In this document: piece by piece, positions 2,657-60,850 of the stretch
How the letters are laid out: each line of letters opens with the position of its first letter
Position numbering within the stretch: position 1 is the first letter of the stretch
Source of the DNA: Golubevia sp. BC0850
Taxonomy: Eukaryota > Basidiomycota > Exobasidiomycetes > Golubeviales > Golubeviaceae
Length of the DNA stretch: 64,000 nucleotides
Direction of reading: 5' to 3'
Assembly (NCBI GenBank): GCA_012976225.1
Contig: JAAVVG010000042.1
Span: 1-64,000, forward strand
Notes under the pieces: model-generated
Database searches by the model: none
What the model saw: only the letters and a program-made list of their open reading frames with translations
What the model was told of the DNA's origin: nothing
Program-made: the position numbers and the translations under genes

Positions 2657-2761
2657 TAGCTGGAAGTGGTCTCGATCCACCGACCTTTGGGTGTCAAGTC
2701 AACTGCTAACAAGTTAGATGGTTATTATGGGCCCAACGCTCTTCCACTGAGCTATCCAGCT
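2657..2761 (-). tRNA. Initiator tRNA-Met (CAT) with a 33-nt intron
   Basis: The minus strand folds as a full cloverleaf. The 7-bp acceptor stem AGCTGGA pairs with TCCAGCT, and the discriminator is A. The D-arm is GCTC/GAGC and the anticodon stem TTGGG pairs with CCCAA. Eukaryotic initiator hallmarks are present: the A1:U72 pair, a three-G/three-C anticodon stem, and A54 with A60 in the T-loop (ATCGAGA), replacing the usual T54. The anticodon loop is CC-CAT-A, so residue 33 is C, as in plant and vertebrate initiators. A 33-nt intron sits at the canonical site after position 37, giving 105 nt in all. Internal promoters fit: A-box TAGCTCAGTGG and B-box GGATCGAGACC. A Pol III terminator follows. 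Introns in initiator tRNA genes are, to my knowledge, less common than in elongator tRNAs. Confidence 0.93.
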
Positions 2762-3055
2762 GAACTGATTGATGTATATAATTTTGAAAAAGTCCAATAG
2801 ATCACCTGAGTGAATTTTCGAGAAACAAATTGTTGATAGAACGCGCTCAACCAGCTCAGAGCACACAGAATACTCCTTGCCCCCGCCGTCTCCCCGATTT
2901 CTGGCTCTTTTTCCCCCTTAAAAGCTATGGAGGCATAGTTGGGTCTCCGAGGTACTCGGACTGCCCTTCAGCGTCAGAGGAGATAGAGGGAATCATGTCC
3001 TAACCGACCTCTGCTTCTTCTTTAATCATTCCAAATTTCCCCCCTTATTACGTAT
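2762..3055. repeat. Upstream flank of the tRNA, duplicated near 10.4-10.7 kb
   Basis: The sequence beyond the 5' end of the tRNA recurs at about 10454-10725 in the same orientation. Shared blocks include CTCAGAGCACACAGAA, TTTCTGGCTCTTTT, GGGTCTC and CCGACCTCTGC. By eye the copies differ at roughly one base in five. No protein is apparent. The duplication covers tRNA 5' half plus 5' flank, so it is not a classic tRNA-headed SINE, whose body would lie on the 3' side. Confidence 0.75.
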
Positions 3056-9773: not shown

Positions 9774-11131
9774 CTTGACACTCAAGTTTGAAGGTGCGAG
9801 CTGATTGAGCTCTGAATGTTCCTTATTGGTTCTGCTTGTAAATCAACAATCGATAGTTAGTCTCAAAAGATGGAGAGAAGAGAATGAAGGGAGATCCTCC
9901 CTCCAAGACGCGTTCTCCTCGTGACGTGTCTCTGCACGGACCTTTAGCATCTTCGTTCGCATTCACTCGCCTTCTCCTTAGGAGGAAATGGGAATGAAAC
10001 CGTCCACGTCCTCCAAAATCAAGTATACAAACGGCAGGAGAGGAGCAGATCATCTCGCCAAGAATACTTTGCCAGCCTCTTTCTCCTGGTTTGACCTCGC
10101 TCTCTGTTATCCGGTGGCACTTCAAGCCTGTAACTTAAGTTCAATTTGTCTCTGGTAGTAGTAGTGGTCCTGCAGAGGTCCAACAGACCCCTGCCAATGA
10201 AATTAGGGATGCGAAGATTGCCTCTTCTCTTGAAGGTTCTAAAGTCGAGGGTTTCGCTTCCTTCTCCCCACCTTGGGAGGAAAATGGAGTCCTGACAAGG
10301 GTTGCGACGCTTTCAGTTTTTCTGATCAGGTCAGAGATTTAGGAGACAGGGGCTACAGCACCCACCCTTGTATGATATGGGCTCCCATTCGACTGAATCA
10401 CTGAAAAGATGGTTATTATGGCTCCAGACTCTCTTCCACCGAGCTATCCAGCTAAAATGCTTGATGTATGGTTCAGCGAAAGTATCCCTTGGGTTAGCTG
10501 GGCGAATTCCCTAGATCTTGTTTGGCGACAGAACACTCAATCACCTCAGAGCACACAGAAAACTCCTTGCCCACGCCATCTCCCCAATTTCTGGCTCTTT
10601 TCCCCCCTATTAGAGCTGTGGAGACATAATTGGGTCTCGGAGGTACCCAAATGGACCCTGAGCGTCAGATGGAGAGAGAATGAACCCGACCTCTGCCTGT
10701 TCTTCATCATTTCAGTTTTTGCGATCTTGAAGATCCCCTTACTTTTCGTCTATCACACTCTCCTTTCAGACCCTTTCCTTTTATTTCTCGAATTTCAAAC
10801 CCACTGACTCCAAAACTAAGGCTTTGAAGAGCAACCTCGAAAAGGGGGTGGCAAACATATCCCTCCCGTTGCCCATCAAAGCGACTATTTGCACTCAAGG
10901 GTACATCCCGGGACCTCACAGTCCTGGTTCCGAAGAGTTGAAATCCTGCTGGAGGCGAACAGCGGACCTGTGTTCACTAGTGTGACGGAGTGGGGCGGCG
11001 GAGCAATCCTCAAGTTACCTTCACGCCCCAAATCGTCTCGTACATCACTCATCAAATCAGTTGTGCTAAGAAGTCAGCATTCCAAATTTTTACATTAGCT
11101 AGAACACGACAAGACGATTAACATAAGGTGA
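9774..11131. other. Intergenic stretch containing the duplicated tRNA half
   Basis: Apart from the duplicated segment at 10408-10725, I see no gene here. Open frames of 100-130 codons exist on both strands but have no conserved motif. The 10409 frame is simply the duplicated tRNA flank read as protein. Confidence 0.5.
10408..10725 (-). repeat. Duplicated initiator-tRNA 5' half plus flank (tRNA pseudogene)
   Basis: 10408-10453 on the minus strand matches the first 46 bases or so of the initiator tRNA gene at 2761, through the anticodon loop into its intron (AACCAT). The rest of the tRNA is absent. The A-box is kept (TAGCTCGGTGG) but there is no T-arm and no B-box, so it cannot make a tRNA. 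The matching 5' flank continues to about 10725. The GC-rich anticodon stem has been lost, as the copy reads CTGGAGCCATAA in place of TTGGGCCCATAA. Confidence 0.8.
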
Positions 11132-12332: not shown

Positions 12333-14647
12333 ATTCGATTCTTGAAATGAGTTTTTTGAGGTTTTGATGTTGTTGAATTGATAGAAAAATTCAGAGAGGA
12401 AAGGCTTATGTACTGAAGTATGCGTTTGAGAGGATCGCTTCTTATCTCGGGACGAGATGGTCACCGATTGAGAGCAGGTAGCAGGTAGCGCTCTTGTCCT
12501 CTTGTCTTCTGAAAACTAGAGATTTACCCTTTTCAAGATCCAAAGTCAGTAGAACACAAAGCTGAACAGACCACGAGACAAGAAAAAGATGCGGTAAAGC
12601 GGTGAAGCGTTGTCTCATCTCGCCTTCACACATGCAAGATGAGGAGAACGGGTTGTTTCTCAGTCACACAAATGTTGGCAGAGAAAAAGCTAGTTGATCG
12701 CTAGTAAGATAAACGACTTGAAGCTACATCAGAGAGCTAGAAAAAAATTAGATGAAAGACCTGACCTATTGAAATCAAAGTTGCCCTTCTGAGAAGTTCA
12801 CAGAAAAGAGCTCCAGAAAGACTTTCCCAGCTTTTTACCAGCCAGACTCCATCACACCCACTGAATTGTCTTCCAGACCTCGAATTCGACGACAAAATGA
12901 AGCAGGAAATCTTGGCTGAATCTTTTCTTCTCGTGCCAACTCAGTTGACTCTCAATTCCACATTCATCCCATCTCGTTGGGGAACCAAACGATCAGAAAC
13001 TCTTTTCAATGACTGTCACCAGCTAGCAACCGTCCTTGAGAAACCTGATAGAGACATATCAAGTGAATTAGAGGAGATACGGCTTCAAAGCTAGACGAGC
13101 GACAATAAATTCAAGCCTGCTCGGCACTGGTCTGAATCTCAGTCTCGATCTTCCTCTATTTCCCTTGCGGGGGTATTCAGACAGAGACATCGTCAGTGAG
13201 TTCAGAAGAAGCTTAGAAGGCCACCGCAGCACCTCCCAATAAAATCCGATCTATCTCCTCTTCCCCACCTCCTTTCCTGACCTCCAAGTCATTCTTAGAC
13301 CAAGTTGACCAATCTGAGAATCCGACTCCACTGGGAAACCAGAAGAGTCAGAGTTAAGATCTATTGGAATCCCCTCAAAAGCATCTCCGACTTCAGAAGC
13401 GAACTTCGAAGCAGGAAGAAATGGCCTGGCAGCTAGAAGAAGTGCTGCTTCTTCTTCTCTCCCTCCACCCCTCCTCCCATTCTTCTCTAGTAGGTGAATA
13501 ACGTGAGCCATCAGGTCTATGACAGTTAAATCGCATCTAAAGCCTAAATTTGCTGACCAAACGTGAGGACTCTTACTCTGCCTCTTTCATCTGCCAGGCA
13601 CCTCTCCCTCGACTCACCTCTTTTTGCACCCTTCTACCCTTCTCCTTTCTACCTCCATACTTTCCTCTCCATCTGGATTCATTCAGATCTGTTCCCTCTG
13701 ATCGTGATAACTTGATCATCAAATCTTGTTCCTGGTCTCTCCTGTCTTTCACAGCTGAAATTCTGCGAGCTCTTCCTCTTTCAGCCTCCTCTCCTACGAC
13801 GTTGGACTGGGTTCAATGATTGGCCATGATCTTGAATTCGATCTGCTGATGAACCCGAGATGGTGTTTACTGCGTCGAATAGAAGGGCGAGATGATCCTT
13901 CAGCTGGGTTGGAGCTGTTTGACTTATTGATGTAACTCCTCCTCTCATACTCCCTCTCTTACTCTATCCTCTGTCTTGCAGGATGAAGTTATTCTGGAAG
14001 TCGGATTGAAAACAGAATGGAATCAAAGAAGAAGAACCATTGAATCGAATCATAGTGGTGGTGGGTCGTCAAGAAGAAACGGAAGCTTCTTTCCTTCTTG
14101 ACTCGCTGACCATATTCCATCAAATCCTTCCATTTGCTTCCACTTCTTCTGTTAATCAGTGTCATTGAATCGACGTCTTCAGATCAAGGTTTTGGGAAAA
14201 CACTCGAAAGAGCAGACTCAGCCAGGTGAGTCCACAGGAAGAGAGCATAGCACGCCTTGCTGAGAATTGAGCTTTCTATCTGAACCTCTAACGCTACCTC
14301 TTTGTATTGACTCAGCTACATGATTGGATTCCCTAGAATTACTAAGCAGAGCAATCTTAGTCTCAATCAGGAGTAACTTTTGCCTTCACAACGGAGAACT
14401 CTGACGCCACAGAAGCTTCTTCAATTCGAATAAAATCAGATCACGAAGCCTCGCCTTCCTACTTGATTCTCTTCTGCTCTTCTGGCCTTTTGACTTTGGA
14501 ACAAAAACGGTGAGTCTTTGATACCAGATTGGATCCAGCGACATGCATGCCTGACGGTTTGTCTGACTCTTCATCACTTCCTCATCTCGCTTTCTCAGTC
14601 CCCGCTTCTCTCTCACCAACGCCTTCAAAACATCTCACTCTACGAAC
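12333..14647. other. Long gene-poor stretch
   Basis: No gene can be followed with confidence. A plus-strand frame at 12897-13094 (65 codons) and antisense frames at 14386-14628 show no motif. The only coding-like pieces are on the minus strand at 13251-13820 and are listed separately. CT-rich runs on the plus strand are common. Confidence 0.45.
13251..13820 (-). CDS. Possible small unknown gene, model incomplete
   Basis: An 86-residue open frame starting at 13511 (MAHVIHLLEKNGRRGGG) has balanced amino-acid use, with AALLLAARPFLPASKFASEV and a Ser/Asp-rich middle. Upstream, at about 13640-13820, another stretch (RRISAVKDRRDQEQD and GTDLNESRWRGKYGGRKEK) ends at a GTGAGT donor. I could not join the two with a consistent phase, so the model is incomplete and either part may be spurious. 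No family is recognised. Confidence 0.25.
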
Positions 14648-15752
14648 ATGTCAGTGGCATTCAAACTGAGATGCATCAACGACGTCCTTCCTTCAGAGAC
14701 TCTTCTCACTACTTTCAAGACCTTAGAGACGAGGGAGGTTTTTTAAATTAGAGAGGTCTGCAGATTATGATTGAAATTGATGGATGAGAACAGGGCATTC
14801 TGGAGGACAGTATTGCTTTCAGAGAGAAAATTGGAAGAGGTTCAGTCTGTGGTCGATCAACTCAATGAGAAGAGCGGATCAACTCTAGAGGAAATTTCGT
14901 TTGAAGTCAAAGGGGATTCATCCCAAGATTTCTTCCAACTCGTCGAATCAATTTTCAAATGTCGTCAAGTTCTCCAAGTTCTTCACATGGGGTTAGATTA
15001 TGCAGCCCTTCAGGGATCACGAGCTCTCACAACTCTCACAATTTCATTGCTTCTAAAGCTTCCCAACTTGGTCGACCTCCGAGCTTCGCCTTCTGCCTCT
15101 AAGGTTCGACTTCTAAGGGCAAGTGCAATCAAGTTTGGATCTCTACAGATTCTTTGAGTTTCTTCTCTTCAACCACCGCCTTCCAGTTGCCTCCACGTCA
15201 GCCATCCAAACTTCTTCCAAACTCTCACGTCCTTAAAGATGGAGGATTATAACAGCCATTCAACTTGGAGAGAGGTGCTTTTCCACTGTTCTCAATCTCT
15301 CAAGCGTCTATCTCTTTGGCTCAATGGTTTGCTTCTAGGTGAAGAAGTCCCACAACTTCATATTTCCTAATCTAGAGGCGCTGGAGATGTATGAGATGGA
15401 TGATCAGTTTCCAACCTGGATGGTGGTCCCTCCAACCTTAAGACTCTTTACCTACGAGATCCAAACAAATCTATCTGCAATTCAAGAGCTACGGTTTGAA
15501 TACCTTGAGAACTGGCAACTTCTCTCGTCTAGATGTCCAAACCTTCAAGTCCTCAGATCAGAATTAAACGGCTTCAATCCTCAGCAGCATCTCTTAGATC
15601 TTCTCAAAGCAAGAGAGAGGAACGTCAAAATGGGTTTAGAGGTGGACCAACTCAAGATTGAGCCACTCAAGAAGCTAGTCATCCCCTTCAACGAGCTCTC
15701 TGCTGAGGCGTTAGAAGAATGTCGAGAGCTGGTGGAAGAGGTGGTCGACTGA
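14648..15752 (+). pseudogene. F-box/LRR pseudogene with stops in the F-box
   Basis: ATG 14648 opens a frame reading INDVLPSETLLTTFKTL, the first helix of an F-box. The same frame then continues REVF-stop-IREVCRL-stop-LKLMDENRAFW, which is the classic F-box second half (I/V-R-x-V-C-R-x-W) broken by TAA at 14744-14746 and TGA at 14768-14770. Leu-rich repeats follow: LLKLPNLVDLRAS, QSLKRLSLWLNGLL, IFPNLEALEMYEMDD and CPNLQVLRSELNG. The frame also changes twice, near 15157 and 15335. An intact relative would link substrates to an SCF ubiquitin ligase through Skp1. The stop at 15750 ends the last block. The gene looks recently inactivated, since the rest of the protein is still easy to read. Confidence 0.7.
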
Positions 15753-16539
15753 AATTCTGAGGCGAAGACCTGGGAGGTCGAAATTTGAATAGGACTTTTC
15801 CCATGGTAAGTCCAAGAGACCAACTTGTATCGCATGACAGAGTATTTCTCAAGCCTATCTGATTGACCGATGCTTTCTCCGTCGTACCTATCCTCTTTTC
15901 CCAGCTGCGAGCTGCAGACTTCTCTTCTACTGCTCTTCCTGCGGCCCTTCGAGATACTCCTTCAACTTTCATGCGTCAAATCTCTTTCACTAATTCCGAT
16001 TCAAGTTCCATCTCTTCTCTGGGCCAGCCACTCAGTCTCGTCGCAATTCTGCTCGCACCCCCCTCCAAATCCTCAACATTAAATCAAACTAGATTCGGTT
16101 CTCTAACTGTAGTTTCTCGAAGTGTATCTGCTGTTCAAGAACAATTAGAAAGGAGTCCTCTCAAATTCAAGAAATTCAAGCCAGGAGGAAGACACTGAAG
16201 CTGGAGAGATGAAGTCCTCTCTTTACATTTACTTCTCAAGGCAAGCTTGTAATGCCTTTCGAAACTCGAGATTTCATTTCTTCTGAATTGTCTGTTCTGG
16301 AGTGCACACTTTCTTCCTCTGCCCATCGCGCCTCTAGAATTGAATCTGATCACCCTTTCTTGGAGGTTTCCAACCTTATCTCCTTCCTGCTACCTTTCCA
16401 CTTCTAGAAGCCGACCTTTCTCTGCTCAAAGATCCTATCCAGACAAGGTCCAAGACCAAGACTGCTCGAATCGCATCTGATCGACTTGAAGACTTCTCGC
16501 GCCACTTCGTTCCCCCCCCCCCACTCGGACTTCTTTTGC
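15753..16539. other. Intergenic stretch between the F-box pseudogene and the repeated family
   Basis: A 111-codon plus-strand frame at 15863-16198 (FSVVPILFSQLRAADFSST) has no recognisable motif and may be a decayed exon. A run of C residues lies near 16505. Sequence from about 16530 onward matches the upstream regions of the other repeated-family copies. Confidence 0.4.
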
Positions 16540-18492
16540 TTCTTCCTTCCCGACCACCATCATCCTCTCTTCATTTTCACCACTCATTCCAACATCTACG
16601 ATCATGAACGTTAGATCTAGAATCTGCTTCCATCCCATTCAACAAGGTCTGACCAGCGGTTGTCTTCCAATCATTGGACCGACCATTCAAAGGATCTCAT
16701 TCCATCGACAAAGTCAAGAGAAACTGCGATCAAAGATTTCAAATTGAATCCAGAAGAGGATCATCTCTACGAAGCAGGAGGATGTAACTGTGGTGGAACA
16801 GGAGAAGAAGGGAAAGAGGAGATGTTCAAGGATGATCTGACTCTGGAGGAGATGGGATGAGAGGATGAGAAGAGAGTCTTCTTGAGGAAGATCGAAGTGA
16901 AGGAAGAGATCAAGGAGGAAGACGAGGAGGATGTCAGGATGGAGACCAAGGAAGAAGAAGAAGAAGAAGAAAAGGAAAAAGAAGAGGAGAAAGAAGAAAG
17001 CTTAACAGGTGAGTGCCGGTGCGATTCATCTCTGGAAGTATAGGGGATGCCGTCTGAAGAAGGAGCAGGTGAGGGTCATGAAGCAAGAAGAGGCAGCAGC
17101 CAAAGGATCCAAGAAGGATTGAATGGCCTTCAATTCAGCTACTCACGTTTTTTTTGGCTTTCCTCACATAGTCAGAAGATCGTCTCGTTCTCTGGGAAAG
17201 CGGAGAGCTGCAGTCGAGGAGTAAGAGGAACCTTTCAGAGCCTCAACCTCCCAACCTTTCACCTCCTCGAACTCTTTAAGCCCTACTGCAATCATTTCTA
17301 CTATTCTTTGCATGAAAGACCTGACCAAGAATGCGCTCATCCCTGCTCACCGAATCTCCAAACTTCTAGGTGGTGACGCTTGGATGAGCCAACCGATTGG
17401 AAAGCGGGCACGATTCAAATCAAGAGCAACACCTCACTGAGTAAACTAAAAACTGCTGTCAAATCTTCTCTAGCTTCTCAGTCGGTCGTAGAAGGTAGTG
17501 GTCTCTTCAACTCAGCTCTGATAGAAGCCTTCGTCAGAGCTTTCCAGCAAGGTGGTGGCTCTACTTCCAACTTGAGGAGCCGTGACTATCAGAGAGCTGC
17601 AGAGCTCCTTCAGGAACGACCAGCGAATGGAGGTCAGTCTAAACTTTGATTCAGTCTGTCGAATCTTCAGCGCCAGATGCTGACTCCAATTCTCTTTTCT
17701 ACAACTCTTTGGTCCCTCCAACAGGGAATCAATCCAGCAAAAAAGACTACCTCAATCTGTTTCCACCAGTTCAAAGGTTCCCTCTGACTGGAAGTGTTCT
17801 GACTGGTAAAACACTCTCGTCTGCGAGGTCGATCTCAGTTCTTTGGGCGAACGACACGTGGCTAACTCAACAGTCACTTCCTGGATTGTCCCAAATCAAT
17901 TTATCTGACCACCGTTCCAGCGCTCGACTAAGAGAGATCGCAACTCTCACTTCCATTCGACATGGTGATCCTGCTCTGGTTCCCTCCAGCTGTCCTCGAA
18001 GCTTTGAGACAAGCAATCAACTACGCTGGCGCTGATCCGCTCAACGGTTCTCACGTTTCTCATCATGGATGGTCTCAGCAGAGATGTCTTCCTCTCGCTC
18101 TACATTTTCTCAAGAAAGAGCTAGGAGTCGTAGATCCCCCAAGTGGAACTGCTCCTCTGAAGAAACGAAAGAGAGCTCCGAGGAAGAAGCCTTCTCCTTC
18201 AGAGGACGAGTCAGAGGACCCGAAATCAGATCTTACAGACTTAGAAACAGAGGAAGAGGACAACTCAAATCCCGAACCAGGTCCCTCCGTCATCAACAGA
18301 CCTTCCACCTCAATTTCTCATCAATCAGCTCCAACTCCTCAGGAAATTGAGCAAGCTCAAATTCAACTCAAGGAGTTCAGATCTATGTCGGAAGCTCAAC
18401 TAGATGGATCAAATCTCACCGAAACTCAGAAGCTGGAGTTCAGAAGACACGTCGAAGAGATGGAGAAGATTCTGTACGATCTAGAGGAATAG
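16540..18492 (+). pseudogene. Longest copy of an unknown repeated gene family (copy 1)
   Basis: This locus shares its upstream region, start and body with copies at 31342-31857 and 55982-57540, and its tail with 40245-40381. From ATG 16604 it shows a short basic start, a Cys-containing block (EAGGCNCGGTGEEGKE), an acidic Glu/Lys-rich tract, a middle block (ALIEAFVRAFQQGGG, YQRAAELLQERP), a block with SARSISVLWANDTWLTQQ, then KKRKRAPRKKPSP. That basic stretch resembles a nuclear localisation signal. The C-terminal tail is QLKEFRSMSEAQLDGSNL through LYDLEE and looks helical. Introns with GTGAGT or GTCAGT donors appear near 17012 and 17635. The reading frame is interrupted, so it seems broken. 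I recognise no domain, neither transposase, polymerase nor integrase. It could be a lineage-specific gene family or an undescribed mobile element. Confidence 0.55.
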
Positions 18493-19036
18493 ATTGGGAA
18501 AGATGAAGATGAGTTAGCTCGGAAAAGGGTGAGTAGACGTTGATTCCTTTGGAACAATTCAGCGCTTTAAGGTCAAAATGGCCTGGCTGCTTTAGGGTTC
18601 AAATGGCCTAGCTGATCTCTTTCGCCCTCATTGGTGGGTTGGTTTCTTTCTTACAGGCTCCAAAGAATCGAAGTTGGTGCTGAAAAGAAAGTTGAAACCT
18701 CACAAACCTGTATCAGATGACGTTCTCTCTTATCTTGTAAAACACGTTTTCTCGTCTGTTCTTCCCTCTTTGGGGGTGCATTAGAGCTCCAAAAAATAGT
18801 TCACCTCCTCTTGCCATAACACCCTCGCTGTTCGAGGAAGTCAAATGGTGGTGAGGCGCAACAAGCAAGAGGTAGTCGACAGATCTCAATACCGATATGT
18901 AGAAGGAAGAATCGAGAAAATTTGATTGAACATGAGAAGTGAATGCATCGAACAAAATGCTATGTACAAGGTGATTTTGGTCATTTCACCTCTTCACTTT
19001 GCCACAACCAATCTCCCAACTTATGGAGATAACGAG
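18493..19036. other. Intergenic stretch
   Basis: This is the 3' flank of copy 1. A short phrase (CAAATGGCCTAGCTG / CAAAATGGCCTGGCTG) is repeated twice at about 18575-18615. No gene is visible. Confidence 0.4.
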
Positions 19037-19738
19037 CTAAGGAAGGTTCTTGCTTTGAAGTTCAGAAGTGAAGTCTTCGGGAGCTGGACGTTTGATGATG
19101 CTTTTAGGCTCTGAGAGGAGAATGAAGCGATAGAAAAGAGTAGAAAAAGACAGACCAGTGCCCAATTCAAGTGGAAGAGAGTTTTGGAGAGAGAGTGAGA
19201 GAGAGAGAGGCGGATGAGGTGATGGCAGTGGCAGTGGCAAGAGCTCTTCTTCTCTTGTCTAAGGATCTGATTCCCTAAACGGCATTGGTATGTTTCTCTC
19301 TGTCTCCGATCTTCACTCTCCATACCTCATCTCCATCGCAAAGTACCAGATCTTAAACTAGACACTCACTCTTACTGGCTCCACTGTGCTTGCTCTTCTC
19401 CTCTCTCTTTCTAATGAAGAGAGTATCCCAAGGCGAATTCTTAAATCTTTCAACGTCAATCCTGAATCCAACTCTTCTGGATCCGCCTCTGTGGTAGAGT
19501 CACGGTCGCATCTATGAATCGAATCGTAGAACGAGTGCTTCGGATCCAAACCTCTTTTTCTGAGAACTGCTCTGATCAATTTGTTCGCTGGTTTCTCCAA
19601 GTCGACTTTCTCTACTGTAGATGGACCATATGGTTTGAGTGGGTGATGACCAGAGGAGTAACATATCTTGATTCGGTCCAGTTGAAGCTTGAACATGAGG
19701 ATGGAAAGACGAAGAAGAAGTGGTTTCGAATGCTGCAC
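19037..19738 (-). CDS. Short gene of unknown function, model uncertain
   Basis: The minus strand from about 19738 to 19372 reads as coding. It contains GPSTVEKVDLEKPANKLIRA, VLRKRGLDPKHSFYDSI, SGLTLKDLRIRLGILSS and LERERRRASTVEPVR, and then meets a GTGAGT donor. A downstream piece (PKSIIKRPAPEDFTSELQSK) follows an acceptor near 19112 and stops at TAG 19037. The connection between the two is not fixed and an exon may lie between them. No convincing ATG is obvious at the 5' end. Charged, helix-rich sequence suggests a real small protein, but I do not recognise a family. Confidence 0.35.
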
Positions 19739-20093
19739 TTTCCTTTCCAGGCCGCAACACTGATTCTCTCAACTTCACAGAATCTTTCTAGATCAAGTCA
19801 TTAGACTTGTCTACATTACATTTCCCAAGATGAATTTCTTGTTCTCCATCCTTTGTCGATCTACAAACAAGAGAACAAACTGTTGAACTTTCTATTACTG
19901 GGAATGGAATTATTTACAAGACGACAGAAATTGACTTTTTGTGTTAAATGTTTTGACGATAACAAGGAAATTCTGAAGACAAAGACACCAAATCTAATTA
20001 TTCTATCAACGAATCAAAAATCCCAAGACCAAATGGAAGAAAAGAAAGAAAGGAAAAAAGGAAGAGAAGATGGACCTTGTATCAGCCGTTATT

Positions 20094-21900
20094 TCAAAGC
20101 ATCCCACAAGAAAGCCTCTTCAAAAGTCCATCCTTTGACTTCCCATTTCCGTTTTCATTTTCGTTTCTCTCTTCTCCCTTTTCAAGTTCCTCAACTCCCA
20201 AACTTTTTTCATCCAAACTTTGCTTGATCATGGAAGTTCTCACTTGTTGAACCTTCTCATCATATTTTACAGGACAATCTTTCATTCCTTTTTGCAAATC
20301 CAACAATTCCCTTTTCTCACTCCAAGATTCCAGTCCAAGAACCTTTTCCATTCTAGTTAAACCAACTTTGATAGCAGAAGGAGAAGTTGTGAAAGTGAAT
20401 CTAAACCAACCTGGAGTTGGACTTGAGTGAGAAAAGGAAGGTGAAGAACGTTAGATTTTCCAAACCAAAAGCCACAGACCTCTTCTTCAAGGAAACCTTT
20501 CAATGAGACTCACTGATGATATTGAGCTCCAGGAGCTAAGAAAACTTTCTCCTCCATCAATTTCCCAGCGAGAAGAGCTTCTGCTTCTCTTTGATCTTCA
20601 ACCTTAGGATCTAAGAATTTCGAAAGATCAACAAGGAAGAAATGACCAGAACCAGAAGGTACGTAAGGAATTTGATGATGTTTCATGAAATCAGTTGTAT
20701 GAGTATAAGAAAGTGAAAGCCTTCGACGATTTTCTTCCAAATACCAGGCTAGGAATTTAGTGTCGTTGAGCCTGAAGCGAAGTAGCGCATGTGATTAAAT
20801 GAGTCAGAAAGTTCAGCAAGCAAGAGATATGGAAGAGAGAAAAAGGAGATGACTCACCAAGTATACCAAAGAGCAGAAGCAGGACTACTAGCTTGATTTA
20901 AAATCCCCAAAGCACTCATAGCTCTAACCAATTCTTTGTTATCTTGAATCACAGCAACTCCTAATCTAAATCCGTTGACTGAAAAATCTTTTGAAGCAGA
21001 GGTTACGACGTGAACTCTTGAGATGTCTAGGTTCGCTTCTTTCTTAACGTCAATAGTTAGGATAGAATGGAAAGTTTCAGGCTTTGGAATATCTGAAGAT
21101 GAGAAGATTGAACGAGCGTAGATTTCATCCATTAATAAATGAAGATTGTGTTTTGATGCGAATTTAGCGAAAGAGATTAAGGCTTCTCGAGAGTAGATAC
21201 CTCCAGTTGGGTTCTGTTGCAAATGGAAGGGAACGTCAGTCGGGTAAGTGAATTGTTATTGAAATGATAATTCAGGGAAGCTCCTTGTTGATGGAAAGCG
21301 GAATGGAGTTGAGTAGGGAAGAGAGATGACATCTCTTGCTTTTGGAAAACTACTCACATGAGGATTACAAATCAACAAAACCTTACATTCGATTCCATCT
21401 TCCTTAGCTTGCTCAATAGCTTTCTCATAGAATTCAATATTTCTCTCATCAAGATATTCCTGATTTCCTTTGGTATTTGGTTGAGGAACTTTAACCTCGA
21501 CGATTTTAGCACCTGATCTAATTCCAGAATCTCCATCGAAACCATTATAATAAGGAGTTGAGAGTAAGATTCCATCCCCTTCATTACAAAGTGTCCAAAA
21601 TAAGGAATCTAAAATCCCAGAAGCTCCTGTTCCAACTACAATTTGTTCTGGTTTGATTGGATGAATGTTCTTGGGAGGAGAACCTCCAAAAGGATTTGAA
21701 GGGGTTGGGATTTCAGAGGGGATTCCATCTGGAATGTCGTTGAAGAGATGACATAAGGCTTCTAAAAGTCGTGCAGAGGTGAAAATCCTATCTCCGTAGG
21801 TTAATTCTCCTGGTGATAAGGAAAGTCGATTGTGATTGAAATATTGGAGAAGTTCTGGTCTGAGGAGAGAATTGTCGGCTACTCCGAAGGATACGATTCC
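20094..21900 (-). CDS. Class I/II PLP-dependent aminotransferase (ACC-synthase-like)
   Basis: Four exons are secure: 21358-21900, 20858-21213, 20514-20771 and 20094-20421, with matching phases (495 codons). They cover GIVSFGVADNSLLRPELLQY, VVGTGASGILDSLFWTLCNE, LLICNPHNPTGGIYS, LHLLMDEIYA, the cofactor-lysine motif SASKDFSVNGFRLG (Lys forms the PLP Schiff base), and APGAQYHHPTPGWFRFTF. This layout matches fungal 1-aminocyclopropane-1-carboxylate-synthase-like aminotransferases. The true substrate cannot be told from sequence. The first exon or exons, expected to add some 30-60 residues ahead of GIVSFG, lie upstream near 21960-22050 but I could not fix them. The C-terminal 80 residues after the domain are charged and Asn/Glu-rich, longer than usual. 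Confidence 0.85.
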
Positions 21901-29171: not shown

Positions 29172-30381
29172 AAGATCTTCTTTGTACTTTTAGACAATCT
29201 TTTTATTTCATGAAGTTTACATGATCCTTGCTTAATTCAATACCCTGGCTGAATTTGTTATAGAGCCACAAACTTGGTTCGAGTCAATTGCGTTTGTTCT
29301 AACCCAGTCGAGAACTTGAGCTTGCGCCATCATATCTCTCCAAGCGCAAACGCTCACCAGAACAATCTTGATGAAAAGCACCTCGGAATCAGATTCTTTA
29401 CTTCAACGCTCTTGCAATACAATGCATCTTTTGTTCACTTCTTCCCTTCCCTCCCTCCTTTGTGTCAATTTGCCTCTTGCCCCTTCTCTTCCCCCTCTTG
29501 ATCCGTCTTTTATTAAACACCTCTTCATCCGATCCTTGAAATAGCCACATCGATCGCATTCGTTTCTTTCGTCTCTTCTTCTCTTGTCAACACTTCTCGC
29601 GTGCTCATCTCGGATTCCTTGAGGCGAATCTGGCCGGGCTGTTAGGAAGCTGCAGTCTGTTTTGATTTTTGAGAAACACAGTCGTCACAAAGAGCATATC
29701 TCTGTCGGAGGATTCGAGTATTCGGAACTTCAACCTTCGAATTTGGAACAATGGGGTAGAAGGGGCGGTGAGAAAGAATTGAGACGAAAAGAAACGATGG
29801 GCAACGAGAGCCCCTCCTCTGCTTAAAGCCTGGGTAATCTTCAAAAATTTGAACAGTTGTAAAGAACAAGATGGTAATCTGATTTGGGGCCAAAGGATCG
29901 AGATGAGATCAGAAACAAGGATGCCTTGCCTAGGGGACAGAACTTCGATTCGAGGGGCTGCTGCAACTCATTTCAAAACCCTAGATCTTCCTCTTCGATC
30001 TGATCCAGGAGATAAACTCTCAACTTCAGTCTCTGCGCAGTCAGGGACAGAGAAGCTCTTCCGTTCTTCCATAGCTGATCCATGCCTTCTAGTGTTCCCT
30101 CGTGATCCACAGAAAACTCTTCTTGACGATCACGGTAGGAGGCGATGCAAACTAAAGAAGAGCGGATTCCTGATCGTAGGAGCCGAACTAGTTCTTGTTC
30201 GGGGCTGACGAAGCCACGCATAGCTCCGTAGTTCCAATTGAAGTTTGTTACATGAGATCCGAGAGCAAAGATGGCATTGGAGCCGAGAGGAAAACTTTTA
30301 AAGAAGGGGGAAGATTGATTGGGCTTTCTCTCGAAGCGCGAAGTAATGAATTGACCAAATAGAAATCCCCACCTGAAACCT
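29172..30381. other. Intergenic stretch
   Basis: This is the 3' flank of the START gene. Open frames at 29274-29501, 29605-29893 and 29849-30221 overlap on opposite strands and carry no motif. No RNA gene or repeat is visible. Confidence 0.45.
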
Positions 30382-31305
30382 TCAAATTCTGAAATTTTGG
30401 ATATCAGTACCTGAAGATGAACCTCTGATGCTCAAATTCTCTAAAGAGAGCTCTGATTGTTGAAGCCCACTGAAAGAGCAAGAGAGGTGGCCTTCTTTTC
30501 TTGATAGCGAAAAGCACTTCAAGTCTACCGTCATTTCTAGGATGATCTCTAGGACCTCCTCGTCTTTCTTGTTGGTAGATAATTCAATGTCTAATTTCAT
30601 TCCTAAAAGTTTAACCTTTGACGTTCCATTAATCAAAACCTCTCTATGGTCCCTCAGGTGTTTGAAATCTAGTTTCCCAATCTTGACACAGAGGTTTGCT
30701 TTGAGTAAATGAGGAAGTCTCAGATCCAGACTGAGTTTCTACCAGACGAATGAGTGCCTGACTCTAGTTGACTTGGTAGAATTGTAATCTCACTGAGGTT
30801 TGACCAAAGTCATTTTAACAGTTCCATACCCTCTACTTTGCAGAATGGAACCGTTATCTTTCCACGAATACCTAGAGTCTTCAGGTTTGGTAGAGCTTCT
30901 AAGATGAGACCACGAGCCACCGAACATTGTTGCTCATGAGGAAGAAGATTGGTAAATTCTGCAGGGGAGGAGGAATTCTCAAGGAGCATGGCATCTAATC
31001 TTAAGAGCTCATGTAATAAGTCTAGTGCTTGAGATCCGGTGATAGTAGAACCAGCTAAGCCATTCCTTAAATAAGTCGGATAAATCTACTGTAGCAGAAT
31101 TGTCTCCTTGAACAGTCACCGAATGAAACCCTTGATGAGTTCCACTGAGAGGATGAATGAAACTAAGGTGCTGAATAGAATCTCTAGCTGTTGATATTCT
31201 GTTCAAAGTCCTGATAAAGCAATTCAAAGTATCAGGGATGAGCTGAACGTCTTGAAGAAGTAGAGGAGTCCATAAAGAGTTGGAGCGTTGAGAGAGCAGA
31301 GACAA
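30382..31305 (-). pseudogene. Relic of another F-box/LRR-type host gene
   Basis: The minus strand reads LWTPLLLQDVQLIPDTLNCF, DSIQHLSFIHPLSG, SQALDLLHELLRLDAMLL and ARGLILEALPNLKTLGIRGK, then SELSLENLSIRG, with Leu-rich spacing like the two other F-box/LRR relics in this window. The frame shifts near 31075 and stops occur near 30810 and downstream, so this is a broken gene rather than an intron-bearing one. The 5' end, where the F-box should be, is missing: the sequence directly abuts the repeated-family fragment at 31342. It is not an obvious copy of either other relic. Confidence 0.5.
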
Positions 31306-31341
31306 GGAGCGTAGCAGGCCGAGGTCCTCTCTTTTCCTATG

Positions 31342-31857
31342 TCATCCCATCTCCTCCAGAGTCAGATCATCCTTGAACATCCCCTCTTTCCCTTCTTCTC
31401 CTGTTCCACCACAGTTACATCCTCCTGCTTCGTAGAGATGATCCTCTTCTGGATTCAATTTGAAATCTTTGATCGCAGTTTCTCTTGACTTTGTCGATGG
31501 AATGAGATCCTTTGAATGGTCGGTCCAATGATTGGGAGACAACCGCTGGTCAGACCTTGGTGAATGGGATGGAAGCAGATTTTAGATCTGAGCTTCATGA
31601 TTAATGATTGAGCATGTTTTGGATTGAGTGGTTGAAAAGATGAGATGATGATGGTCGGGAGGGAAGAGAAGAAAGAAGTCTGAGTCGTGAAAGAGAAAGT
31701 TACAAATAAAAGTGCAGATGTGAGAGAATGGGAAGGACCACAGAGAGGGAGAGGGACAGGGAGGTTGGGTAGGCTCTTGAAGTTCATTCGCAGCAGATAG
31801 ACTTGCCAGATTTGCGTAAGAACACTTAATGAGTTCTGGGTCTCCTTTCCATTTGTC
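31342..31857 (-). repeat. 5' fragment of the unknown repeated family (copy 2)
   Basis: From about 31857 down to 31342 this carries the family's upstream region, the start at 31598 and the block through DDLTLEEMG, almost identical to copy 1 at 16604-16860. Homology stops abruptly just after the TGA at about 31342, next to the F-box relic. The upstream 144 bases or so (31714-31857) also occur, nearly identical and inverted, inside an intron at 36838-36988. Confidence 0.8.
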
Positions 31858-32504
31858 CGGTCCTCCCCACCCCAGTCTGATAATTCTCTCTCTCCTCTCC
31901 CCCAGGGAACTTTGACTCAAAAACACACTTGCGCTTTTCTGTAGAACCTTTGATCCGAACGAAACTTTGACTGAAACAACCAATCCCATTCCTTCTTCGA
32001 TTCAATCGACCGCTTCTCTCATTCCTCATATTTTGGCTGATTTCTCGATCGATCCCAGCTCTTCCTTTCTTTTCGACAACCAAACATTCAAAGATACAAC
32101 TGACAGCTGGCAGCGACTCCCAAAAGAGCGAAGCAGACGAGACAGGGTTCAAGCTTTACCTTTCGAGTTTTCATCTCAACTTCCTGAGCCACTCCACTTG
32201 TCTTTTCTCTAGTGTTCTTCTGAAGCTGAATTCTAGTCACAGAAAAAGCCGAAGCGATGTTAAGGGCTGAAAATACAAAGATTGATAGATTGTTGAGCGA
32301 GAAGAATGAACTCTGTGATGACAACAAGAGGAGAAGGGAGACGAGACAAGTGGTGGTGTATTTGACAGCTAATGATTTAGTGGATTTGACTTGTTGTACT
32401 GCGATTGTGAGTTGAGTGTTGTGGTGTAGATCTAAAGAACGATGACCAGAAGTGAAAAGGTTGAGCAATAGAAGGGGAGAAAGAAAGGCCAGAGGGAGGA
32501 CAGA
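31858..32504. other. Intergenic stretch
   Basis: No gene can be supported between the family fragment and the deubiquitinase 3' end. Overlapping frames on both strands lack motifs. Confidence 0.45.
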
Positions 32505-35500: not shown

Positions 35501-37412
35501 TTGTACTTGAAGGACAATATTCCCTTGAAGAGTCTTCTTCCCAAACTTTCGGAACATCTCCAATCAAGTCAAAATTAGGTTTACTAGGAGGCATAGGAAG
35601 AGGTCTAGATCCTCCACCACTCTTGCTACTCGAAGAAGAAGGTAAAGAATTCGGAACCCCAGGAAATTGACTTTCATTCGATTTCTCAAAATCATCTAGA
35701 CTTGGATATTGAGAGTTGAATTCAGAAGCAGTTGGGATATGTGGGAACCTTGTTTCTTGATCTTGATCTTGAGCCTCTTCTTCTTCATTGATCCCATTCT
35801 TTCGATCCTGATTTTGATTTCTTCCAGACCCACCAACATAACCTAGTTGTCCAACCACATCTTTACCATCTCTAACTTCCTTTCTAAGATTCTCAGCAAT
35901 TGAATCTAGGTTCCCCTCGATTGCTGGTGAGGGAGATCTAGTTGAATTCCTTATTTCTTCCCCTTCTTCCCTTTCTCTAGATCTTGAGATTGAATCTTCT
36001 TCCGATTTCCCACTTCTGTTAGATTCAGACCTTTCCCTGACTCCAGCACTCGACCTTCCAAGACCCTTTGAAATCCTCTTATTCCCAGAACTAGTGACTT
36101 CAGAACTCATTCCTTGATTTTTTAAGGCTTCTAATCTAGCTGCTAGACTATTTGGATCTGATTTTCCGTTCCCTTTCTCGTTTTCTTTTCGGTTTGGATC
36201 TGCTAGATTTAAGGAACCTAGGTCTTTTAAGATTGAGTTTGAGGAGATCGGATTGGAGGAGACAGAGATGTAGTTTGAGTTTGAAGGTAAAGGCGTAGTT
36301 GAAGGATGAGTAGAAGTAGAAGCCACATGACCTGTCGAAGTAGGAGTACTGGAATTCGAAGAAGCTTTGGATCTAGAAGGAGTAGAGAGTAGAGTCGAAG
36401 CGTTCCTTTCCTCTCTTTCTCGTAAGAGCTCTTCTACTCTGTTGCATCTCGAGATCAGTTCTGGTGTGCTCTGAGAAGGTAAAAGATGGGATGAAGGGGT
36501 TCGAAATCAGCATTCTAAGTCGACTTTAGATTCTTTAAACGTTTACTTGAAGAAAGAAGAAAGAAGAGGAGGGAGACTGAAAGAGAGATAGGATAGAGAA
36601 AGAAAGAGTACTAACCTCCTGCAAATTCTTAAACCTCCTCCAAGTTTCATCTTTCTTGAGTCTGTGATCTTTAAAATCTGGAGCTGTTGGACAAAAGGAG
36701 ATGATGCTGTGAGGTGAGATTAGAAGGAAGGAAAGGGACGGGACGGGAGAGGTGAGTAGAATGAATGATTGCGACGTCGATAGACCCCATACTACAAGCA
36801 AACAGAAAGCGACCGGAGCAGAGAAGAAGATGGAAAGTCGACAAATGGAAAGGAGACCCAAAACTCATTAAGTGTTCTTACGCAAATCTGGCAAGTCTAT
36901 CTGCTGCGAATGAACTTCAAGAGCCTACCCAACCTCCCTGTCCCTCTCCCTCTCTGTGGTCCTTCCCATTCTCTCACATCTGTACTTCTTCCTTCCTTTC
37001 CCCTTCCCCTCAACTCCTCACCCCCTCCCTCTCGCCGCTCGGACACTCACGCTGCAGCCTTCCTGTAATTCAAGAAAGCGTCCTCCAAACTACCCTGCTG
37101 ATCGCTTCCTCTAGCTCTCTCTATCAAACCTTCAGCTGCATGAATGTAAGACTTGACAGAAAAGCCAGATTCGTAAAAAGGTAAAGGGTTAGCCTTCTTC
37201 AGTTCAGCTGGATGATTTGGTGAGATGAAGACGGAGGAGGAGGAGGAAGAAGAAGAGGAAGGCATCGGTTGAAGAGTAGATGAAGATGTTGATACTGATG
37301 GGTTAGAAGAGGGAGTAGAAGAGGGAGTAGAAGGAGTTGGAAGAGATAGAGATAACCTTCGTTGAGTAGTGGAAGTGGAAGTTGAAGTTGGAGATCGTGG
37401 ATTATTTGACAT
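32505..37412 (-). CDS. Ubiquitin-specific protease with USP8-type N-terminus and rhodanese-like domain
   Basis: Seven exons give 1,357 residues: 37051-37412, 36616-36706, 33833-36470, 33334-33755, 32807-33242, 32627-32709 and 32505-32546. A helical USP8-dimer/MIT-like region (VKSYIHAAEGLIERAR, AFLNYRKAAAIISF) comes first. A rhodanese-like domain follows (LEILLIDLRSREEFENGRI), about residues 480-610; its active-site Cys is not obvious. The USP catalytic domain starts at GLKNVGNSCYMNATLQC (nucleophile Cys near residue 1010), then QHDSQEFLVFLLDGL. Zinc-type Cys pairs MTCLTCG and WHCPSCKK come next, and GSLNTGHYTATIRNDGNWW holds the catalytic His. The protein ends SPYVLWFRRRL. This architecture matches Doa4/Ubp4-Ubp5 and USP8, which strip ubiquitin from cargo at endosomes. 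The first intron contains a foreign repeat at 36838-36988. Confidence 0.92.
36838..36988 (+). repeat. Near-identical copy of the repeated-family upstream region, inside the first intron of the USP gene
   Basis: About 150 bases starting GACAAATGGAAAGGAGACCC match 31857-31714 read on the opposite strand, with only a handful of differences by eye. The ends of the match are sharp: CATCTG-ACTT on the right, GACAAATGG on the left. The piece lies wholly within the intron 36707-37050 of the deubiquitinase, so it should be removed by splicing. Confidence 0.85.
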
Positions 37413-39404: not shown

Positions 39405-40244
39405 AAAGAAGGATGAGAATCAGGAGGAGAGGAATTTTAGATTTCGAAGAATAGAAAGAGGGTTGAGAATCAGGCCATCAGGTGGAGAGGAATTGTAGGA
39501 GGGTCAGGCAAGGAGAGGAAATGTATTAGTAGTAGGACTTTATAGCTTTGATTTTTTGAATTCGTTAATGCGTTTCGGCTCGTTTTGCGTAGATAGATGA
39601 GGGATGAATGGTTGAGACGAGAGAGAAGGATGACTTTGGAATGTCCGGTGATGGGTGACTTCATCCTTCTTTGGATTTAAAGAAAGAAAGGGAGGTCAAA
39701 GGCTTGTTCCGGACTCAAGATGAAGGAGACCATCTCAAGCGAAAGTCTATAGAGTTCGAGAATATTACAGATGACAAAAAGATTTCGTTTGGTTTCATTA
39801 TGAAATTGAACAAAAGGTCTGAAGCTAAGAAATCGAAGGGAAAAAAAGCTGGACCGACCGAGGGAATCGACGCTTGACGACCGACAAGATGGAAACTGGA
39901 AATCCCTCCTTTCCCAACTCTTGGTCGGGCACTTTCTGTTCTTTGTTTCGTTCCGGTTTGGATTTTCGCACTTGGTGTTGCTCCCTTTTGAGAAGGTTTG
40001 ATTGTGCTCTGTGGATTTCGAAGGGTGTAATGGTAATGAGAGTATGCTTGGATCTTATCTCTAATACCTGATGCCTACTTTATGTCCTGTCTCCTTCACT
40101 GAAGAGAAACTGAAGGACTTGAGTATCAATTGATATTCGGAAAGGTTTGATGGCAAATAACAGTTTATCTTCTCCTGAGTGAGATCTTCCTTCCTTTCCT
40201 TCTTTCCTTCCATTTCCACAGTCTTCCCAACCCCGTCTTGAAAA

Positions 40245-40381
40245 ATCGAACAAGCTCAAATTCAACTCAAGGAGTTCAGATCTCTGTACGAAGCTCAACT
40301 AGATGGATCAAAACTCACCGAAACTAAGAAGCTGGATTTCAGAAGACACATGGACGAGATGCTTAGAGATTTGGAGGAGTA
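40245..40381 (+). repeat. Solo 3' tail of the unknown repeated family
   Basis: This is closely similar to the last part of copy 1 (18345-18492). It reads IEQAQIQLKEFRSLYEAQ, LDGSKLTETKKLDFRRH, then MLRDLEE and a stop at 40379-40381. Nothing upstream belongs to the family, so only the 3' end is present. Confidence 0.8.
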
Positions 40382-40602
40382 AAACGATGGCCAAGAAGGA
40401 GCTGGGCTGAGTTGAGAATGTGAGTAGACCACCAATCAATATCACAATCCCCAAAGGCACTCTCCATGAAAGAAAGAGCTGATGTGTCTTGAACACGTTC
40501 TTCACTTCTTTCCTTTTCCACGCCAGGTTCCAACGATTCTCAATTGAAAGAGGGAAAAACTCTCTTTCCTCTCTCTCCACTTTGAGGCTAAAAAATTATT
40601 CG

Positions 40603-40666
40603 ATTCAATTCAATTCAATTCAACTCAACTCAACTCAACTCAACTCAATTCAATTCAATTCAATTC
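40603..40666 (+). repeat. Pentanucleotide microsatellite (CAATT/CAACT)n
   Basis: Roughly a dozen tandem five-base units: outer units read CAATT and the central block reads CAACT. The nested pattern suggests one variant spread through the middle of an older CAATT array. Confidence 0.9.
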
Positions 40667-55981: not shown

Positions 55982-57540
55982 TCAGGCTTGGACTCTGGCT
56001 TGACAGGCTTCTTGTTTAACACCAGTCCTGGAGAACATGGAAGAGTAAGGGAACAGAAGAATCTTGCGAGGTTTTCGGATTCTTTGTTTCGAAACAGATT
56101 GAGAGAGAGAGAGAGAGAGAGAAAGACTAGTTTCTAGGTCTGTAAGATCCGATTCCAGATCCTCTGAGTCGTCCTCTGGTGGAGAAGGCTTCTTCCTCGG
56201 TGCTCTTTTTCGTTTCTTCACAAGAGTAGCTGGACGATCTACGACTCCCAGCTCTTTCTTGAGGAACTCTAGGGCGGGAGAGAGACATTTGCTTTGAGAT
56301 CATCCATGAAAAGTACTTCCACCTCCCTCATTTGGATTGGCAAAAGCGTGTTTGATTGCATGTCTCCAAGCTTTGAGGACAGCGGGAGGGAATCCATCTG
56401 GAGCTGGACCGCCAGTGGGAATGGAAGTTAAGTGTTGCCAATTCTCGCAATCGAGCGATTACATTAGGACTCGATAGACTTATTGGCGATAAGCGAGATA
56501 GAGGTTCCTGAGTCAGCCACTTGTCGTTGGCCCAAAGAACTGAGATTGACCTGGCAGAAGAGAGTGCTTTACCCGTGAGACCACTTTCAGTCAGAGAGAA
56601 CCTTTCGATTGGTGGGAGAAGATCCAAGTAGGCTTTGTTATGAGTTTGATTTACTGTTGAAAAGAACAGGGAGTCATAGAAAAGCTTTGAAATCAATACT
56701 GAGATGCTGAAAACCTGAAACAAAGTTCGTACTGACCTTGACCACCTTGCTCCTCTTTAACGAGCTCTGCAGCCCCCTGAAAGTCATCAATCCTCAATTG
56801 GAAAGTAGACGGACCAGTACCTCTCCTTCTCGTCGCACTTTGACGTTCATGGAAAGCTCTATATTAAAAATAGCAGAACTTACTGCAGTAGAGTTCGAAG
56901 AGGTCAAGTAGGTGAAAGGTTGAGAGGTCGAGGCCCTCGGAGGTTCCTCTTGCTCCTCGACTACAGCTCTTCTCTTTCCCTGAGAGCGGGACGAACTTCT
57001 GACTGTGTCTGGACAGCCAAAAGAACTTAATCAGTAGTCGGATTCAAGGCTACCTAAATCTTCTTCAATCCTTCGGCTGCTGCCTCGTTGCCTCTTCTTG
57101 CTTCATGACTCTCCCCTGCTCCTTTCTTAACTCAGGCGACACCACCAATACTTCCAGAGATGAATTGCATCGGGCCTCACCTGTTGGGATTTCTTCTTTC
57201 TTTTTCTTTTTCTTTTTCTTCTTCTTCTTCCTTGATCTCCATCCTGACGTCCTCCTCGTCTTCCTCCTTGATCTCTTCCTTCACTTCGATCTTCCTCAAG
57301 AAGACTCTCTTCTCATCCTCTCATCCCATCTCCTCCAGAGTCAGATCATCCTTGAATATCTCCTCTTTCCCTTCTTCTCCTGTTCCGCCACAGTTACATC
57401 CTCCTGCTTCGTAGAGATGATCCTCTTCTGGATTCCTAGATCTGAGCTTCATGTTCGAATAGTTCATGGAATGAGCAGTTCAGAATAAGATGAGAAGAAG
57501 ATGGTGGTGGTCGGGAAGGAAGGAGCAAAGAGGTCTGAGT
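55982..57540 (-). pseudogene. Second long copy of the unknown repeated family (copy 3)
   Basis: The minus strand has the family upstream region (about 57540-57453) and ATG 57452. Next come EAGGCNCGGTGEEGKEE, the acidic Lys/Glu tract, a Ser/Arg-rich block ending EEQEEPPRAS, the AFHERQS to GAAELVKEE block, and NKAYLDLLPPIERFSLTESG, SVLWANDKWLTQEPL and KKRKRAPRKKPSPPEDDSED. A CT microsatellite (56098-56124) has expanded within the acidic region and reads as Leu-Ser repeats. The helical tail of copy 1 is absent. The frame is interrupted. Compared with copies 1 and 2, about 125 bases after the sixth codon are missing here, and the short first frame stays open across the join. Confidence 0.6.
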
Positions 57541-58129
57541 CGACGATTTGGAGCTAGCGAGAGGGTGAGTCGATCTCTGACCCCTTTTTTTCAGTGTACT
57601 CCCACTACGTCACTGAGAGAGTGAGACAAGATTCGGGAATGGTAAAGTGACGTGAGACCCATTTCTAGCACTTCAAAAGAAAGGAGAGAGAGTTGTGGAA
57701 ACAACATAGTGACGCGAGAAGCTTTGAAGTCGAGAGCCATTCGAGCTGTCTCAGTTATGGAACCTGGGTGCGAGTTAGGTAAATCTTTTGACTGGAAAGT
57801 GAAGATGTAATGACAAGATTTCATCATGCCAAAGGGATCCAAGCTTGAGGTAGCTGGCGATGAGTGAATCACAACAACTCGACTTTCGACCCATCCAGCT
57901 TGGAACGTTCTTCTACCCTTCTGATCTCGAGTACGTTCATGAATAGATAGAACGGCCATTCGCTTCAATCACTGTCACCATTCCTTGAAAGATAAAGATG
58001 CAATCCATTTACCCAAGACTTGATGAGACAAAGACGCGGGGAAAAAAAAGAAGAACTCGATTTGAGGTTGAGCAACATTGGATGTAATTATGACTTTGAC
58101 TTATAAACAAGCAAAAACAAATCTGAGAT
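57541..58129. other. Intergenic stretch
   Basis: A 125-codon minus-strand frame (57591-57968) with MAVLSIHERTRDQKGRRTF and FQSKDLPNSHPGSITETARM may be a relic exon but shows no known motif. Nothing else stands out. Confidence 0.35.
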
Positions 58130-60420: not shown

Positions 60421-60850
60421 TTTCACCTACCTCTTCTTGAAATGTTGGTGAATAGTTTGATGAATGATGAGAGACGGAAGTTGATTGGAAAGATTTAAAG
60501 ATGAAGAAATTAGAAGGAAGGAAGGAATGGAAAACTTGTTTCAAGGGAAATGAAGTGATAAGCCTTCAGATCTCCCGATTGCGATCAACCTGGGAGACCT
60601 TCTAGAATATTCTGGATCCACCCTCCGAGGGGATGACGAAAAAAGGGGTCGAACTCCTCGTGGGCGTTTAATGAAGGTAAACTATGACCTATCCCTCAAA
60701 ACTGCAGGAAAACGTGGATAGTAACTCCACATTCACAGTCTTTTGAGGGAAGGCTATGATTCACTTGGAAAGTATTTAAAGCAAGGAAGAAGAACTCCTT
60801 TCTTATCTCTTTCCCACTCTCTCCTTCTCCTCTTCTTTCTTCCATTAAAG

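Follow-up and report, generated by a model that had tools for sequence, protein, structure and literature searches.

Gene content of the window

The window, meaning here the whole stretch of 64 kb of Golubevia sp. BC0850 DNA that was analysed, has a G+C content of 43% (0.40-0.46 across its 16 profile rows) and carries genes that look fungal and are rich in introns. Matches to Pfam include an exon of a 3-hydroxyanthranilate dioxygenase (PF06052, E 1e-22), a minus-strand ubiquitin protease that has rhodanese and UCH domains, a SPRY protein together with a piece of a trypsin-like peptidase, and a piece of an aminotransferase. The dioxygenase gene appears, as judged by eye, to contain an intron of approximately 730 bases (38214-38946), and a weak match to DUF6533 lies at 60725-61201 (E 0.0011, below the curated cut-off). 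Leucine-rich frames, partly broken, occur at 29400-31300 on the minus strand, near the 5' fragment described below, and at 14700-15750 on the plus strand, upstream of the first long copy. Their style is one that we take to be that of fungal F-box proteins, and four pieces from these two stretches found no match in Pfam up to E 1.

A separate direct repeat (74.5% by self-blastn) pairs 2716-3033 with 10407-10714; an Rfam tRNA match on the minus strand (2657-2761) partly overlaps the first of these units, and Rfam gives none at 10200-10900. At 52970-53245 a stretch of about 115 bases is present twice at 72% identity, with about 160 bases from start to start.

Layout of the repeat family

Comparison of the window with itself by blastn reveals a family of related sequences made up of two long copies (c1 and c2), a 5' fragment and a 3' tail (Table 1). 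The two long copies align over c1 16523-16624 and c2 57540-57431 (75%), over c1 16746-17308 and c2 57435-56866 (84%) and over c1 17560-18248 and c2 56809-56130 (72%), while c1 16523-16876 matches 31685-31327 of the 5' fragment at 89% and c1 18344-18462 matches the tail at 40243-40361. The five real blastn matches of c1 score 66 to 631 bits, and the best obtained from 20 shuffled versions of the window (first-order Markov) reached 31.9 bits, so that the likeness of copies at separate places exceeds chance in this window-wide comparison and the multi-copy family proposed in an earlier note on this DNA is borne out. A search by nhmmer with c1 as the query recovered the same copies. It stretches the tail to 40195-40429, an extension that at the 3' side is not above shuffles, and it adds five weaker matches of 4.4 to 15.2 bits elsewhere in the window, which were not counted as copies. 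Short repeats of the TCAAT/TCAAC type lie downstream of the tail at 40590-40666.

Table 1. Positions of the family pieces, their parts and the associated repeat unit within the window.
Feature	Position	Strand	Remarks
Copy 1 (c1)	16523 to ~18490	+	Found by self-blastn
Copy 2 (c2)	56130..57540	-	Match ends at a TC-rich run; two shortfalls; frame broken, with an in-frame stop
5' fragment	31327..31685	-	Leader and high-identity block only
3' tail	40243..40361	+	91% identity to c1
Leader of c1	16523..16603	+	Common to c2 and the 5' fragment
High-identity block of c1 (97%)	16604..16983	+	Shared ATG; shared in-frame TGA at 16858
Last coding part of c1	17725..18492	+	WAND block, helices, basic block, helical tail; frame break near 17955-17980
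Putative intron 1 of c1	17009..17171	+	GT-AG
Putative intron 2 of c1	17633..17724	+	GT-AG, at the matching place in c2
Putative intron 1 of c2	57003..57180	-	GT-AG
Putative intron 2 of c2	56654..56736	-	GT-AG
Upstream patch of c1	16428..16506	+	Common to c2 only; score 50
Upstream patch of c2	57708..57788	-	Matches c1 16428-16506
148-bp unit	31710..31857	-	Adjoins the 5' fragment upstream; without counterpart in c1 and c2
Second 148-bp unit	36840..36987	+	Putative first intron of a USP8/DOA4-like ubiquitin protease gene

The earlier note had placed parts of one sequence at five positions. All five exist, but the piece at 36838-36988 is unlike c1 and c2 and belongs to a separate repeat, leaving four family pieces in 64 kb, which lie in both orientations and end at differing points. 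The same note had carried c2 on to 55982, a limit that gains no support, as the similarity between c2 and c1 stops at 56130; beyond it, c2 55600-56129 and c1 18249-18800 give no match above shuffles (score 21, shuffle 95% = 24).

Introns and codon patterns

Two GT-AG introns can be recognised as putative features of the sequence at corresponding points in c1 and c2. Downstream of the second of these, the differences between the two long copies in the exon that encodes the WAND block (17725-17960) are concentrated at third codon positions, with 19, 8 and 29 changes at codon positions 1, 2 and 3 (76 sites each). Over 60 codons of this exon the Nei-Gojobori estimates are dN 0.17 and dS 0.86, a ratio of 0.20, and the protein pieces of the two copies are 66% identical. 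The tail differs from c1 by 3, 1 and 7 changes at positions 1, 2 and 3 (39-40 sites each), and its 39 codons give dN 0.09, dS 0.14 and a ratio of 0.64. In the remainder of the c1/c2 alignment the codon signal is weaker at 17961-18248 (18, 10 and 21 changes by position), and at 16984-17308 the codon pattern is gone (23, 19 and 17). Judged by these codon statistics, the later exons were once under protein-level selection, the signal of which is weaker or absent outside the WAND exon.

The codon statistics, taken together with the matching GT-AG introns, argue that the source was most likely a spliced protein-coding gene that was duplicated as DNA. An origin as processed (retro)pseudogenes was considered and rejected because introns remain, putative GT-AG intron 2 being found in both long copies. 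The proposal that the copies arose as DNA segments and not from processed transcripts thus holds, given that the putative introns, the leader and an upstream patch are all kept.

Decay of the copies

Every copy within the window is non-intact, and none can make a whole protein. Both long copies lose their reading frame in one area, which in c1 lies near 17955-17980, and c2 then runs into an in-frame stop further on. Relative to c1, c2 has approximately 125 bases fewer near the start and approximately 195 bases fewer before intron 2 (56 bases in c2 and 251 in c1). The possibility that the first of these shortfalls is a lost intron was rejected, as the edges of the approximately 125 bases are not GT-AG.

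One in-frame TGA (c1 16858), situated after the Cys block, is common to the three copies that have a 5' part (c1, c2 and the 5' fragment), and the acidic tract follows this TGA in the same frame as the Cys block. Either these two blocks would belong to one frame that was already interrupted in a common source or they would not both be coding. In the Cys-block frame, c1 and c2 show 3 silent and 3 replacing differences over 16747-16983, and c1 and the 5' fragment show 0 silent and 3 replacing differences over 16621-16860; this pattern gives no argument for coding there. Of the encoded blocks that the earlier note had listed, the Cys block and the acidic tract are parted by the shared TGA, and the Cys block is only putatively coding. 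That note had left out that the copies are broken, that a 97% segment lies amid neighbours of 75-89%, and that 36838-36988 is a different repeat.

An alternative is that the family is alive and that the apparent breaks are errors of sequencing or assembly, and it might draw on the small number of breaks in the last exon of each long copy and on the dN/dS of 0.20 in that exon. However, the match of c2 ends before the 3' end of the gene, c2 lacks the approximately 125 and 195 bases described above, the 5' fragment and the tail are short pieces, and one TGA is common to three copies. We consider a living family improbable.

A step in divergence at the exon 1 segment

Between about the ATG at 16604 and a point close to the first intron, where the acidic tract nears its end, the copies are 97% identical, while the parts around this segment are at 75-89%. 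Within this block, c1 and c2 differ at 6/238 sites, c1 and the 5' fragment at 7/260, and the 5' fragment and c2 at 3/115. Just downstream of the block, c1 and c2 have 59/315 differing sites in their alignment, which also contains six gaps, including one at the edge; the comparison of block with downstream sequence (6/238 vs 59/315) gives a Fisher p of 4e-10, counting substitutions only. On the other side, the leaders of c1 and c2 differ at 15/80 sites with four gaps, and for c1 and the 5' fragment the block (7/260, no gap) is set against a leader with 8/70 differences and 6 gaps (Fisher p 0.005). A sharply bounded tract in which divergence is low is thus present in c1, c2 and the 5' fragment, which are otherwise diverged paralogues.

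Because there are few silent changes in this block, compared with a dS of 0.86 in the later exon, protein-level selection alone hardly explains it. The identity step suggests a later homogenisation of the exon 1 segment, and we prefer gene conversion as the probable cause. Strong constraint at the nucleotide level could also produce a 97% block, and the argument for gene conversion is drawn from the divergence step. Concerted evolution confined to coding regions has been described for yeast duplicates (PMC3924837).

Upstream regions and the 148-bp unit

In c1, c2 and the 5' fragment the recognisable leader has one and the same starting point, but what lies above it differs among the copies. 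The patch shared by c1 (16428-16506) and c2 (57788-57708) has a score of 50, the maxima reached by two sets of 200 Markov samples being 33 and 35, and its distance to the leader is approximately 150 bases longer in c2 than in c1. Farther upstream of the patch nothing exceeds chance in these two copies (score 27, Markov 95% 27). The patch has no counterpart above the 5' fragment, and the 300 bases above that fragment's leader show no similarity to the upstream DNA of c1 or c2 (scores 21, shuffle 95% 22-23). The description of the upstream regions as conserved with the coding parts is therefore partly correct for c1 and c2, which share the leader and one patch; in the 5' fragment it extends to the leader and fails above it.

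In the 5' fragment the DNA upstream is a 148-bp unit, and 31710-31857 matches 36987-36840 at 98.6% by self-blastn. This second unit resembles neither c1 nor c2 in blastn or nhmmer searches, its sole match being 31710-31857. Since it matches only DNA beside the 5' fragment, it represents a second repeat and not a general upstream part of the family, and the earlier reading of 36838-36988 as an upstream-only piece of the family does not stand. The best of the weak nhmmer matches (15.2 bits) begins just past the second unit, but a direct test of the bases there against the three family leaders gave scores not above chance (17-19, Markov 95% 25-27). The second unit is flanked on one side by a frame whose USP8-dimerisation match is weak (E 0.14, below the cut-off) and on the other by later ubiquitin protease frames, and its site would be the first intron of the ubiquitin protease gene. 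The inverted 148-bp copies bracket most of this gene, with one in the putative first intron and the other apparently past the 3' end.

This arrangement bears on whether Helitron-type capture or template-switch repair moved pieces of the gene and produced chimeras, such as the combination of 148-bp unit, leader and first exon. The 5' fragment does adjoin a unit that is present elsewhere (36840-36987), and its upstream DNA is unlike that of c1 and c2; gene capture by Helitrons has been described in the basidiomycete Pleurotus ostreatus (PMC4289320), and the captured fragments described there are alike in joining gene DNA to foreign upstream DNA. The present copies differ from them in that no pair of 5'TC and 3'CTRR is found at the homology ends, which may differ from the true ends of an element, and in that no helicase or Rep domain is found among the Pfam matches of the searched pieces. 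A history of this kind is held to be quite unlikely.

The encoded protein

Searches of Pfam, NCBIfam, PHROGs, the PDB sequences and IMG/VR found no significant relative of the family protein, in agreement with the statement that its blocks match no known family, at least as far as these libraries extend. The matches obtained are weak: in Pfam, Pox_Ag35 and DUF4674 at E 0.22-0.26 and TMA7 at 8.3; in NCBIfam, one at 0.043, far under its cut-off; in PHROGs, one at 0.074; and among the PDB sequences, one at 0.43 and two at 2, with none when the WAND piece of c1 was used alone. Among the viral contigs of IMG/VR, the last frame piece of c1 gave 19 pattern matches and the WAND alignment gave 15, none of which were confirmed in either case, and an exact DNA pattern of 39 bases gave no match. 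A pattern of 21 bases matched three records among genome contigs, two bacterial and one archaeal, and these are attributed to chance, given so short and purine-rich a pattern. A text search of the literature for the letters of the basic block retrieved no papers.

AlphaFold modelling of the WAND piece was not confident (mean pLDDT 45.9). The C-terminal piece reached a mean pLDDT of 54.4, its last 50 residues forming two helices with a pLDDT of approximately 80, which fit the helical tail that had been read from the sequence. Judging from composition and from this partly confident model, the protein would probably be nuclear and bind DNA or protein, and would combine an acidic region and a basic block with a long helical hairpin at the C-terminus.

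Origin of the family

The explanation that we judge best, and to which we assign about an even chance, is that the family consists of DNA-level duplicates of an undescribed intron-bearing gene that are now pseudogenes, and thus represents ordinary duplication debris. Genomic segments that included the leader and introns would have been duplicated into new sites, in either orientation. A long period of divergence would have followed, its early part under the protein-level selection that the codon statistics show for the later exons, before the copies lost the reading frames that are now broken. Later, homogenisation would have affected the stretch that begins at the ATG and reaches almost to the end of exon 1; the simplest route would be gene conversion, with a single donor in which the TGA was already present. 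The codon statistics, the matching introns, the frame breaks, the homogenised block, the copying at the DNA level and the C-terminal helices all argue for this history. However, four pieces within 64 kb, of either orientation and with differing ends, are dense for a host gene family, and a repeat element fits them equally well. The status of the source as a gene rests on codon statistics and putative introns, with no intact copy in the window; moreover, the codon signal weakens in 17961-18248, the tail has a dN/dS of 0.64, and the substitutions in the Cys-block frame do not speak for coding. Dispersed duplicated pseudogenes with partial gene conversion are alike in having DNA-level copies with introns, broken frames and one segment of low divergence, and the present family differs from them in that the window shows no parent gene that is intact and the searched libraries gave no significant match to the protein family.

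Alternatively, the pieces may be relics of a mobile element, either an unclassified DNA transposon or one of another kind, with introns in its own gene and with an enzyme part that was lost or is unrecognisable. The density of family pieces, dispersed in both orientations, keeps this reading alive as a doubtful but real possibility, and it is also in keeping with the finding of no known family in the searched libraries. In a curated repeat library of Pucciniomycotina, 27.5% of the consensus sequences are given as unclassified in the results and 16% in the discussion (PMC12210899), so that nameless relics are common in such fungi, although this may not be the group of the present host. Given so large an unclassified share, the fact that the family has no name is little evidence that it is unusual. 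The unclassified families of that library resemble the present one in being multi-copy, decayed and without a recognised enzyme; here, in contrast, a coding signature and putative spliceosomal introns remain and the candidate ends vary.

Against a mobile element, the surroundings of c1, c2 and the 5' fragment yielded neither terminal inverted repeats nor long direct ones. Self-blastn of 13500-20800, 53600-60000 and 29400-32300 gave matches of 14-29 bases only, in a search that would miss elements reaching beyond these regions. In addition, no mobility domain is found among the Pfam matches of 50 window pieces, which were searched as five sets of ten and represent a subset of the frames, two of the pieces lying inside others, and the ends of the copies differ. 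The remark that no transposase, polymerase or integrase is visible agrees with these matches, which include no transposase, integrase or reverse transcriptase; the suggestion of mobility itself gains no support from these domain and flanking-repeat searches. A more specific version, in which a fungal mobile element of an undescribed class carries an intron-bearing gene for a WAND-domain protein and spread as DNA without terminal repeats, is unlikely. Should the genome turn out to contain hundreds of copies that end at fixed points, the family would instead represent a class of element that has no name yet.

The significance of the family would lie chiefly in its being one more uncharacterised fungal protein or repeat family for annotation libraries. 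The step in identity from 97% to approximately 80% near the borders of exon 1 would provide a small, checkable case of segment-limited homogenisation among decayed copies.
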